This document shows, piece after piece, positions 1 to 40,883 of a DNA stretch of 40,883 nucleotides (its first letter is position 1; each line of letters opens with the position of its first letter). This stretch comes from Cyanobacteria bacterium SW_9_44_58 (GTDB taxonomy: Bacteria > Cyanobacteriota > Cyanobacteriia > Cyanobacteriales > Rubidibacteraceae): assembly GCA_003021905.1 (NCBI GenBank), contig PXPI01000087.1, positions 1-40,883 of the forward strand. Reading direction: 5' to 3'. Both the position numbers and the translations under genes were made by a program. The notes beneath the pieces are model-generated. The model had not been told where the DNA came from, did not search any database, and saw only the letters and a list, made by a program, of their open reading frames with translations.

Positions 1-29
1 TTCCGAAAATCAATTGAATAAGGTTGCAT
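1..29 (-). CDS. IS630-type transposase, N-terminal fragment (runs off the window)
   Basis: Only the first nine codons are present, reading MQPYSIDFR on the minus strand from an ATG at position 29. The same start is seen at the right end of the window on the plus strand. Transposases of the IS630 family characteristically begin with a PYSxDxR motif followed by a helix-turn-helix. Too little is present to judge whether the gene is intact. Confidence 0.6.
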
Positions 30-92
30 GGACACGCTTATTTTAATCTACTGTCTTTCCTTCTCAGTGTACCTTATTGGTCTGAGAATTGC
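1..92 (-). mobile_element. 5' end of an IS630-family insertion sequence, cut by the window edge
   Basis: Positions 1-94 are a perfect reverse complement of 40785-40878. The shared block ends in TA (93-94), the target dinucleotide duplicated by IS630/Tc1-type elements, so the element proper is 1-92. Inside it, on the minus strand, an ATG at 29-27 opens a frame reading MQPYSIDFR, the typical start of IS630 transposases. A short inverted repeat (TTCTCAG 61-67, CTGAGAA 82-88) lies near the terminus. The family call rests on the TA flank plus the transposase start; the rest of the element is outside the window. Confidence 0.8.
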
Positions 93-145
93 TATATTAT
101 TATTTAATGATTCTTAGTTCAGTATTGGTTATTCGCTCATTGGCA

Positions 146-19326: not shown

Positions 19327-20139
19327 ATGACTATTGCAACTGAAAAAAATCTATCATTTGATTGGCCAACATTTATCTATATTGCAAGCATCCATTTAGT
19401 CGCCCTGCTGGCATTTTTTCCCCAATTTTTTAGTTGGTCTGCTGTGGGAGTTGCCCTCATCATGCACTGGGTAACCGGCGGACTTGGGGTAACCCTTGGT
19501 TTCCATCGGCTGTTGACCCACCGCAGCTTAGAAGTTCCCAAATGGTTAGAGTATTTCCTTGTTTTCTGCGGCGTCCTATCTGCCCAGGGAAGCGTGATTG
19601 ATTGGGTGGGTTTACACCGGATTCACCACAAACATTCGGATAGCGATCCTGATCCCCACGACGCTAATCAAGGATTTTGGTGGAGTCATATGGGGTGGAT
19701 GCTTCATGACATTCCTGGTGATCCCGAAATTCCCAAATATACCCAAGATATTAATTCCGACCCAGTTTATCAATTCTTATCTAATTATTTCATTTTGATT
19801 CAGGTGGCATTTGGCCTTTTCCTTTATGCCCTTGGCGGATGGCCATTTGTCATTTGGGGCGTATTTGTTCGATTAGCCGTAGTATTCCACTGCACTTGGT
19901 TTGTCAATAGCGCTACTCATAAATTTGGCTATCGCACCTTTGACTCGAACGATCAGTCCCGCAATTGCTGGTGGGTTGCCCTATTAACCTACGGTGAAGG
20001 TTGGCACAATAACCATCATGCTTATCAATATTCGGCACGTCATGGCTTGCAATGGTGGGAACTTGATATTACATGGATGACGATTCGCTTCCTAGAAATT
20101 TTAGGCCTAGCAAAAAACGTCAAGCGAATTAAAGAATAA
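19327..20139 (+). CDS. desC: Acyl-lipid delta-9 desaturase
   Basis: A membrane di-iron desaturase that introduces the first double bond in membrane-lipid acyl chains; it is important for growth at low temperature. The three histidine boxes are HRLLTH (residues 60-65), HRIHH (97-101) and HNNHH near 230. Two hydrophobic hairpins surround them (IYIASIHLVALLAFFPQFF; VAFGLFLYALGGWPFVIWG). Its 270 residues match DesC. A TATAAT at 19252-19257 may be its -10 element, although no good -35 accompanies it. It is followed by a terminator-like hairpin and rplI. Confidence 0.9.
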   Translation: MTIATEKNLSFDWPTFIYIASIHLVALLAFFPQFFSWSAVGVALIMHWVTGGLGVTLGFHRLLTHRSLEVPKWLEYFLVFCGVLSAQGSVIDWVGLHRIHHKHSDSDPDPHDANQGFWWSHMGWMLHDIPGDPEIPKYTQDINSDPVYQFLSNYFILIQVAFGLFLYALGGWPFVIWGVFVRLAVVFHCTWFVNSATHKFGYRTFDSNDQSRNCWWVALLTYGEGWHNNHHAYQYSARHGLQWWELDITWMTIRFLEILGLAKNVKRIKE

Positions 20140-38581: not shown

Positions 38582-38620
38582 ATTCCGTATAATATTAATT
38601 ATTTGATAATTTTACGGAAT
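38582..38620 (-). terminator. Inverted repeat across the secreted-protein stop codon
   Basis: ATTCCGTA (38582-38589) and TACGGAAT (38613-38620) are a perfect 8-bp pair. The right arm includes the TAA stop of the gene at 38612-39043, so it may act as the transcript end of the barrel locus. Confidence 0.4.
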
Positions 38621-39043
38621 ACTTTTAACTGGAATTCCCTGTTTGTTTTCTATTGCTGAGTTTATTGCTGAGTTGCTCGAATCAAGAGGAGTCATTTTTA
38701 AAGTGCGACGAATTTCATTGACGTTACTAGGAGCAGTTGTTGATTGATCAACAAAATTGCCATTTTTAACAACTGGATTCAGACGCATCAAAATGTCGTC
38801 AGCAAATTGACTGCTGGGTTTCTCAGCAAAAGAAACAGTATTATCTTCTATTTCTTCACCCAATATTTTAGTAATATCTATTTCTGGAGATGCTGTTGAA
38901 TCCTCTAAAGGCGGAATTTCTATTACAGAAGGAGGTAATATATCTGTATCTGGGGCAGCTTGAGCTCGCGAGGTAATATTTAAAGTAATTAAGCCTAGTG
39001 TAAAAACAAAAATAGAAGTAAAATAGGTTATTTTCATAGTCAT
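38612..39043 (-). CDS. Small secreted hypothetical protein, 143 residues
   Basis: The signal peptide is clear: Lys-containing start, hydrophobic core (YFTSIFVFTLGLITLNITS) and likely cleavage after AQA near residue 29. The mature part is acidic and low in structure signals (LPPSVIEIPPLEDSTASPEI, TKILGEEIEDN). It has no recognised domain. It lies about 105 bp downstream of the outer-membrane barrel gene on the same strand, so a shared envelope role is plausible but unproven. Starts at 39043 and 39037 are both possible. Confidence 0.7.
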   Translation of the reverse strand: MTMKITYFTSIFVFTLGLITLNITSRAQAAPDTDILPPSVIEIPPLEDSTASPEIDITKILGEEIEDNTVSFAEKPSSQFADDILMRLNPVVKNGNFVDQSTTAPSNVNEIRRTLKMTPLDSSNSAINSAIENKQGIPVKSIP

Positions 39044-39148: not shown

Positions 39149-40786
39149 TTAGAAGAAAAATCCATAGTTCACTGATCCAGTAAATCGTGCTTCTCCTTCT
39201 TGACCAAAGGCTTCTTCTAGATTTCCATTTAAGTCAATGCCTACAACTGTAATGACTAAAGGTAAATTTCGGAAAGGAACTACTGATAAGCCTAAGGTCA
39301 TATCTTGTCCAGTCCATTCAGCAATACCATTAACCCTCGGTAAAATTTGTATTGCTAGACTACTGAACAAATTAAATTGAGAACCATCATTATCAAATTC
39401 AAAGTCTTCTGCAGGACGGAATTTACCGTTCCCTAGCCCTATAGTAACGTAAGCAATTCCAAAGGGAGAAATTGGATCCTCTCGAAGTTGAAAGCGCTTA
39501 CTACCTACCAGGTAGGTGCTAGTTGGTGTTTCTCCTCTTCTTCCTGCTTCACTAAAACTGAAACGAATCAGGTTTTCGACTCCAAAAGAAACGCCACTGT
39601 TGCCTGGTAAGTTGCGACTAATTTCAAGACTTATGCTTCCAGTACTAAAAGCGTCACTTGCTCCATTATCTTCTCCCCCAGTCAGACTTAAAATATTTAG
39701 GGTTGTGTCAACACCAACGCTTTCTTCGGGATCCCCTATTCCTATTGAGAAAGACATAGCACCATCTTCACTATTTCCAAGGCGAGCACGTTCATTATAG
39801 ATAATGCCTGCGCCGATATTCCCCCAAGAATTTCCATAACCAATGGGGTTAAAATAAGTAATGGCAGGACTGGGGACAGGTTTCTTATCGGCTTCGTTGG
39901 TGAGTGCTGTTTGAATATTTTGACGTTGACTGCTACTAAGGGAGTCAACAAAGCGTCTTAGTTGTTGCGTTTGTCGGGGAGAAAGAAGAAATTGATCGTT
40001 TTGGCTAGATTTTAGAGAAGCAAGTTCTCGGCTGAGACGACCAATTGATGTAGCTTGAGATGAGGAAAGGGAAAGTTGATTTTGCGCAGTTTCTAGATAA
40101 GTGATGACATCTTGGAGTTCATTGAGAGAGAGCGTTGTTCCCGCGATCGCGCTTTGATTAAAGACTAAGCCTTGTATGTTTTGTAAGAATGTCTGCGTTT
40201 GCGCTGAAGATAGTTCAATTTTGGGGTTGCAATTGAGTCAAGAAATTAATTAATTCTTGCTTTTGTTGCTGTTGACCGGTACTCAATTGTTGGTTTGGCA
40301 ATCCTTGAAAAAAGGGAATGAGATCATTGATTTCAGCTTGGGTTAGATTAATAGTTTCTGGGGCTTCCCGAGTGAGAAGTAAAATCTCTAGGGCTGCTGT
40401 TTCCTGAGGTTTTAGTGAACCAATTAGCGTTCTCAATTGTTGTGTTTGATTAGAAGAGAGAGTAACAGGTTGCTTGGTCTCCTGTTGTTGCTGTAGTTCA
40501 CTCAATAACATCCTTATTTTTTGTTGCTGATTGGGAGGCAACTTTACCTGTAGAATTGCTTGTAATCCTTGAATAATCTGATTTAGCTCTTGTGGCGTTA
40601 AGGTAACTTGTTCAGGAGTTTCCTGTTCTGATAGTTGCGCAGTTTTTGTCGCCGGCGTAAAGAAAACAAACGCGATCGCGCGACCGAAAGCATCAGTTTG
40701 CTTTGATGACAAGGATACTGATTGTCGCTGAGGAGTGTTTTTCAAAAAATCCTTAACAACTGTTAATTGTTTTTGCTGTAATTTTA
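39149..40786 (-). pseudogene. Outer-membrane beta-barrel protein with N-terminal helical repeats, 5'-truncated and frameshifted
   Basis: One gene in two frames. The upstream part (to TGA at 40215-40217) and the downstream part (open from about 40222 to 39149) join if one base is removed from the run CCCCAAAA (about 40219-40226). No stop interrupts the downstream frame between 40222 and 39149. The N-terminal part holds about ten degenerate repeats of 26-30 residues with a LSxxQ...L..L..L pattern (VTLTPQELNQIIQGL, VTLSSNQTQQLRTLIGSL, FLLSPRQTQQLRRFVDSL). The C-terminal 240 residues form a strand-rich domain ending in YGFFF, the aromatic-terminal signature of barrels inserted by the BAM machinery. 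The signal peptide is missing because an IS630 element sits at 40787. Confidence 0.7.
39870..40720 (-). repeat. Array of degenerate protein repeats (coding) in the barrel gene
   Basis: Successive units start with a hydrophobic-x-LS/LT/LP turn, then Q-rich amphipathic helices: VSLSSKQTDAF, VTLTPQELNQI, VKLPPNQQQKI, VTLSSNQTQQL, INLTQAEINDL, QLSTGQQQQKQ, IELSSAQTQTF, TTLSLNELQDV, LSLSSSQATSI, FLLSPRQTQQL. Unit length is about 26-30 residues. The DNA is not a simple tandem repeat, so the duplication is old. Confidence 0.6.
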
Positions 40787-40883
40787 GCAATTCTCAGACC
40801 AATAAGGTACACTGAGAAGGAAAGACAGTAGATTAAAATAAGCGTGTCCATGCAACCTTATTCAATTGATTTTCGGAAAAAAA
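40787..40883 (+). mobile_element. 5' end of a second IS630-family insertion sequence, cut by the window edge
   Basis: Inverted copy of positions 1-92, starting GCAATTCTCAGACC after a TA at 40785-40786. It carries the start of the transposase (ATG at 40850). The insertion lies inside the barrel gene: two codons upstream of the residual frame there is an in-frame TGA within the IS sequence, so no native start survives. Confidence 0.8.
40850..40883 (+). CDS. IS630-type transposase, N-terminal fragment (runs off the window)
   Basis: The first eleven codons read MQPYSIDFRKK, then the window ends. The start matches the PYSxDFR opening of IS630 transposases. The upstream 63 bases are the non-coding element end with an inverted repeat TTCTCAG/CTGAGAA. 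Confidence 0.65.
   Translation, partial: MQPYSIDFRKK

Follow-up and report, generated by a model that had tools for sequence, protein, structure and literature searches.

A repeat-barrel gene cut by an insertion sequence

The window, meaning the whole stretch of DNA analysed here, is the entire contig C87, 40,883 bases long and one of 136 that make up a draft genome of 2.94 Mb. Close to one end of it, the minus strand holds an open frame of 362 residues that finishes in NYGFFF at 39152 and contains a barrel-like stretch of about 225-240 aa. Upstream of the barrel, in a different frame of the same strand, lies an ORF of 191 aa (40215-40790) terminated by a stop. The features that bear on these two frames are as follows.

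1-94, minus strand: the same insertion-sequence terminus as at 40785-40883, at the other contig end (genome matches)
38612-39043, minus strand: downstream gene, whose small product begins like a signal peptide (ORF; homologous to the gene beside the paralogue)
39152-40785, minus strand: C-terminal part of the disrupted gene (six-frame reading and paralogue match)
39152-39880, minus strand: barrel-like C-terminal domain with the NYGFFF end (3.8e-89 with profile A2, which was built with the window barrel included; 67% to the paralogue; beta periodicity of the family)
39902-40132, minus strand: whole helical repeat unit adjoining the barrel (74.2 bits with the repeat profile, which contains this unit; 46.6 bits with the L044-only profile)
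40215-40346, minus strand: partial repeat unit running into the frame break (27.6 bits with the repeat profile, with one TGA)
about 40218-40230, minus strand: break that separates the frame of the 191-aa ORF from that of the barrel (six-frame reading; each frame matches the paralogue on its side)
40386-40601, minus strand: whole helical repeat unit (71.9 bits with the repeat profile, which contains this unit; 53.6 bits for the upstream piece with the L044-only profile)
40602-40784, minus strand: rest of the unit cut by the insertion sequence (paralogue alignment from residue 184; just 5.9 bits by profile)
40785-40883, plus strand: terminus of a multicopy insertion sequence interrupting the gene; a TA marks the junction (genome matches and reading of the junction)

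Two whole and two partial repeat units are present by a count whose profile includes the window's own units, as the L044 profile does not, and the whole gene would hold about five; residues 146-187 of the upstream piece score 31.0 bits by profile. The original prediction had described about ten Q-rich LSxxQ units fused to a barrel with a YGFFF end. That sequence is indeed seen on the minus strand (39152-40784), but not in one reading frame, and the ten units are better counted as units of 76-85 aa; the observation is real, yet it is not of a single gene product. Promoters and terminators were sought in the window, with no signal clearly over chance.

An intact paralogue with the whole design is present in the same genome (C1:3842-6022), uninterrupted over 727 aa from its first start codon. 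Its residues 382-727 correspond to the window barrel piece (62%) and its residues 184-386 to the upstream piece (49%), and a 202-aa query from the window barrel is 67% identical to it.

The upstream piece runs directly into the insertion-sequence terminus. Among the 30 matches to this terminus listed in the genome, one is the window's other end; 24, with that end counted among them, are no more than 100 bases away from a known contig end, a single one is internal and the other five are on contigs of unknown length, so that the draft seems to have been fragmented by the element. Other copies carry the beginning of a transposase-like reading, and from this and the TA target the element is presumably IS630-like. 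A short copy of the same terminus was also read by eye inside a tnpB-like gene (L010:1501-1598).

The missing N-terminal part of the gene was found at the end of contig C15, where positions 19592-20029 correspond to paralogue residues 51-198 and form the sole further match to the paralogue in the window's genome besides the window pieces (E up to 1). C15 runs into the opposite terminus of such an element, the TA at the junction is common to both sides, and the C15 frame, followed as far as the TA, stays in phase when carried on into the window. C15 is assigned through this matching junction rather than through an assembled join. There is good support for regarding the window gene as the C-terminal portion of a gene that an insertion sequence has interrupted. 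Modelling of a frame-corrected protein had been proposed earlier; such a protein would still be without its 5' part, which lies on C15.

Both window frames are similar to the paralogue right up to the break, and a repeat-barrel gene in G145 (L066:4183-5775; draft 85% complete) also seems to be split into two ORFs, which would agree with programmed frameshifting or with the halves being separate proteins. However, the paralogue and ten other repeat-bearing relatives are each in one frame, C15 carries a further frame break in the signal-peptide region (read by eye), and the window piece is without a start region because of the insertion. We consider such a mechanism very improbable; the breaks at about 40218-40230 and on C15 may be assembly errors, and the insertion, unlike them, is seen from both sides.

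Compared with the paralogue, the barrel has a pairwise dN/dS of 0.16, the upstream repeats of the window 0.28 and the C15 part 0.51, figures that average both copies and accompany dS values of 0.96 to 1.65, near saturation. The sequences fit an old duplicate that was probably kept by selection for a long time before it was lost. As it stands, the window copy is expected to have no function and, as a ruin, matters little. It had been singled out as the most novel protein in the window; the repeat and barrel design is real, but this copy of it is disrupted and not an intact novel protein.

A predicted helical repeat conserved outside the window

Glutamine makes up 18.0% of the 306 aa of the window repeat region. 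Exact LSxxQ motifs occur 8 times in these residues (shuffled mean 0.74) and looser motifs of this type 17 times (shuffled mean 4.6), counts reached in 0 of 2000 shuffles in either case. An alignment of nine full-length proteins gave a period of 76-85 residues, and the consensus over 45 units is LTQEELQQLILVLQAIQELSLRPQQAQEIQSLIEELEQLQAEGQEQVILSPEQTQQLRSLIESLTPEELAQIEQAL, with 1 to 6 units per protein. A profile made from four units of one distant protein (L044, from Oscillatoria sp. HE19RPO) gave 53.6 and 46.6 bits on the window pieces, 18.9 on the C15 part and 83.3 on the paralogue, against a top score of 10.2 bits over 1000 shuffles of each of five sequences. Random Q-rich sequence is ruled out by the motif shuffles together with the conserved repeat profile.

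In a two-unit structural model (pLDDT 72.5, four rows; the structure-prediction alignments held three and four rows only), each unit runs strand-helix-helix-strand-helix-helix, modestly suggesting that a unit may consist of four helices and two short strands. Periodicity of the repeat profile points the same way to a modest degree, with the alpha value reached by 34 of 1000 column shuffles and the beta value by 934 of 1000.

The repeat reaches no Pfam or NCBIfam cut-off in the paralogue, the window pieces or nine full-length relatives, and no SLH (PF00395) match was obtained in the repeats. At E up to 1, neither SLH nor any other domain of Pfam or NCBIfam was reported in the paralogue, and the window pieces have no SLH at the same Pfam threshold. 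TPR gave no match in the paralogue or the nine relatives, where the unit is 76-85 aa. Below-cut-off matches to IFT46_B_C (5 of the nine relatives, best E 0.0013), DUF7739 (4 of nine, E 0.0051) and SRP_SPB (3 of nine, E 0.0049) were taken as chance. Comparison with solved folds gave no clear match, the best Foldseek E being 0.12 and the best VIA-align hit (Z 6.9, rmsd 3.9 over 72 residues) lying inside the range that its output calls common, so that the repeat is neither assigned to a fold family nor set apart from one, TPR included. Against PDB sequences, the best hit of the full-length profile was a heterocyst control protein (E 0.028), with numerous LEDGF entries next in order, beginning at 0.032. 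It had been claimed that the array is not a recognised family, and the families and folds searched bear this out. The profile search with the repeat unit suggested at the same time found the repeats conserved in homologues and shuffled sequences far lower. A match to a named family, or random sequence absent from homologues, would have spoken against the original prediction; the repeats are conserved and reach no Pfam or NCBIfam cut-off, and neither outcome was obtained.

A widespread, probable C-terminal barrel

The C-terminal domain is likely to be an outer-membrane barrel, judging from its sequence. Among 43 non-identical barrels, the terminal residue is F, W or Y in 34, and one of these lies within the last three residues in all 43. 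The beta moment of the barrel column profile was reached by 2 of 1000 column shuffles and the alpha moment by 143, on a hydropathy scale in which we set W and Y as lipid-facing. Full-length structure prediction, carried out on L044, gave no confident model (pLDDT 46.9, with the barrel part below 40 in every ten-residue block), and the barrel assignment consequently rests on the periodicity and the ends. No Pfam or NCBIfam family was reached by 16 barrel members, and nothing in PDB sequences fell below E 0.5 with the barrel profile (best E 0.57). The domain is nevertheless widespread in cyanobacteria, in agreement with the unnamed cyanobacterial barrel family recognised from the start.

The barrel profile matched in 64 of 386 cyanobacterial genomes, spread over the phylum, and its weakest matches are partial ones. 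The full-length paralogue used as query had matches in 87 of 148 genomes of the order, most of those listed via the barrel, and up to 9 in single genomes, where the barrel is multicopy. In the same two samples, which overlap, the repeat profile was found in 5 of 386 and 14 of 148 genomes, respectively. Six of the 14 belong to the window's genus and the remaining eight to a single different family (f9). A survey of which genomes keep the repeat, also called for originally, shows it to be rare and the barrel much wider. Plasmids and viral contigs yielded no relatives.

Exchange of the N-terminal part

We constructed a phylogenetic tree of 41 barrels, omitting the near-copies L084 and L085. Ten repeat-bearing barrels form one group (100/99), within the tree the window and C1 copies are sisters (100/99), and three further repeat-bearing barrels from the window's genus, with one unit each, fall elsewhere. 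Two acquisitions of the repeat were considered on account of these two groups, yet a single origin of the 13 was not rejected (p 0.0735). Five SLH-bearing barrels occupy three places on the tree, one of them (L069) on a long branch, and a single origin is rejected for them (p 1.75e-5). SLH was confirmed by Pfam in all three sister proteins chosen for an SLH-like pattern (L026, L032 and L069), while L030, L042 and L064 gave no SLH match by Pfam; labels beyond these Pfam tests come from our own profile and pattern, and the remaining 23 tree rows are unclassified. Sister barrels, by these labels, have SLH domains or unclassified stretches where the repeats sit. In 17 of 43 barrels, just 84-146 residues precede the barrel in the open frame (the broken frame of the window is not one of the 17). 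The design is real, rare and conserved, and its architecture is well supported.

Classical autotransporters have a variable N-terminal part, a C-terminal barrel and a terminal aromatic residue. The proteins described here have the same order, with a signal peptide and a barrel of about 225 aa, and their barrel could in principle carry the repeats through the outer membrane and display or release them. However, 16 barrels have no Pfam autotransporter match at E up to 0.1, an SLH domain, which binds the cell wall, makes little sense in the passenger place outside the cell, and the stretch before the barrel is merely 84-146 residues in the 17 cases above. We regard export of this kind as improbable.

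The repeat also occurs without the barrel. In G096, G037 and G060 there are additional barrel-less repeat frames of 256 aa, two of which (L095:8962-9726 in G096 and L096:5668-6408 in G060) are without a signal peptide by eye; both of these adjoin a 2OG-Fe(II) oxygenase gene. In G012, one of the 14 genomes with the repeat, it is confined to a short ORF (L063:3497-4141) that starts like a signal peptide and has no barrel match. The standalone repeat of G096 is separated from the repeat-barrel gene by oxygenase genes and a cupin/JmjC gene, and the protein downstream of the repeat-barrel gene has a long PPVA repeat. Prolyl hydroxylation of a proline-rich partner was considered and is kept as a lead only: the oxygenase beside the standalone repeats is found in 59 of 148 genomes (E up to 1e-20) and in 0 of 6 of the window's genus.

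The standalone proteins bear on whether the repeats bind peptidoglycan or act as a spacer stalk, tethering the outer membrane to the cell wall in place of SLH as in OmpM and SlpA. Some sister barrels have SLH at this N-terminal position, and SLH-stalk-barrel tethers are widespread in Terrabacteria (PMC9388160, PMC10628300). On the other hand, the paralogue gave no match to such a domain, the unit number varies from 1 to 6, and a standalone repeat without a signal peptide could not reach peptidoglycan, which argues against a dedicated peptidoglycan-binding role. A tether is possible but doubtful. The standalone repeats suggest a putative protein-binding module, and on their account we favour a protein rather than the wall as the probable target.

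Downstream genes

The product of 38612-39043 is homologous to that of L003:3165-3719 beside the paralogue (BLASTP 1e-10; phmmer 3.2e-6). A signal-peptide-like ORF lies within 1 kb downstream on the same strand at 34 of 35 loci examined, a count that includes a spurious ORF at L026, where a neighbouring ORF is the better candidate, and that enters one gene twice, as L020 and L044; at L015 the ORF is 1.7 kb off. The rule used is lax, as it also flags 17 of the 37 genes in the window and 43 of 100 at 12 long loci, so 34 of 35 is not a measure of significance.

Pfam identified a CHAT domain in 11 of 19 downstream proteins scanned, ten of the 11 having been picked as CHAT-like. Their genes (at L025, L028, L029, L031, L032, L033, L036 and L038-L041) lie directly downstream of the barrel gene, with gaps of -59 to 40 bases. 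Several of the CHAT proteins start like (S/T)GNQSDxTGP after the signal peptide. CHAT as the partner of the repeat version was rejected, with 0 of 5 downstream proteins scanned (window, L003, L064, L044 and L095) having the domain. Homologous downstream proteins across both repeat families appeared likely by eye, but homology between the products of the window's genus and f9 is unsupported by profile (E 11) and BLASTP (0.11). A conserved pairing of repeat and partner is weakened, since no homology was shown between the two families' products.

Other genes occur near the repeat-barrel genes. RTX-like proteins are encoded by the second gene after the intact ones, both in the window's genome (L003:1275-3056, Pfam HemolysinCabind) and in G040 (L065:1-3672, by eye). 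The one-unit genes of G132 and G082 have in their vicinity genes for a PPIC-type isomerase and a C39-peptidase ABC transporter (L067:3-2473 by Pfam; L064:6903-7999 by eye).

Proposed role

We propose that the gene, here disrupted by an insertion sequence, encodes an outer-membrane barrel with an exchangeable N-terminal domain, in this case a periplasmic helical binding scaffold, to which we assign a probability of about 0.55. The ancestral protein, intact as the C1 paralogue, would be exported via its signal peptide, and its last 225-240 residues or so would form a barrel inserted in the outer membrane. The four-helix units of its N-terminal array would remain in the periplasm as a stalk-like scaffold that may bind a further protein, for which the exported product of the adjoining downstream gene is a candidate. 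The periplasmic placing would follow from the signal peptide, the exported N-terminal part and the aromatic-ended barrel, as in SLH-barrel tethers, whose N-terminal part is periplasmic (PMC9388160, PMC10628300). A periplasmic helical part ahead of the barrel had been suggested originally and would fit, because some sister barrels carry SLH there; that it might span toward peptidoglycan or gate the pore was a further conjecture.

On a broader and rather unlikely reading, these genes would represent an undescribed two-gene surface system throughout cyanobacteria, with a fixed barrel core, an exchangeable periplasmic domain (helical repeats, SLH or other stretches) and an exchangeable exported partner encoded downstream (CHAT-domain, proline-rich or small) that is anchored or helped to the surface, the repeats being the version that holds the partner. 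This scheme has room for partners that differ from one another.

Many cyanobacteria have the barrel, and both it and the repeat lie under any Pfam or NCBIfam cut-off. A barrel that carries SLH or a new helical repeat bears on how the cyanobacterial outer membrane is connected to the rest of the envelope, and the downstream genes, with CHAT in 11 of the 19 scanned, offer a testable pairing with it.

Comparison with known systems

Neither the barrel nor the repeat was named in the titles and abstract openings searched, coverage that excludes most subscription journals and is weak evidence of absence. OmpM and SlpA tethers have an N-terminal periplasmic part, a helical stalk and a C-terminal barrel, which are also predicted for the exchangeable-barrel proteins proposed here, and SLH is present in sisters of the latter. 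The tethers have SLH at the N-terminus, whereas the paralogue has none; their stalk is one long coiled coil, in contrast to the short four-helix units predicted here, and the SlpA barrel spans residues 254-1167, compared with 225-240 aa (PMC10628300, PMC9388160). The cyanobacterial SLH-OprB porins (PMC8707739, PMC9705863) are likewise outer-membrane proteins with SLH, which here occurs in sisters, but the barrel described here, including that of the paralogue, has no Pfam porin match.

For two-partner secretion, the paralogue, nine full-length relatives and 16 barrels gave no match to POTRA or to the TpsB barrel. Classical autotransporters share the order of parts and the aromatic end, and differ in that no autotransporter domain was matched here and some members of the barrel family have SLH where the passenger would be. 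The TPR unit is 34 aa long. Like TPR and other helical solenoids, the repeat appears to be built of tandem antiparallel helices and is probably protein-binding, but its unit is larger, at 76-85 aa, and is modelled with two short strands in addition to the helices.
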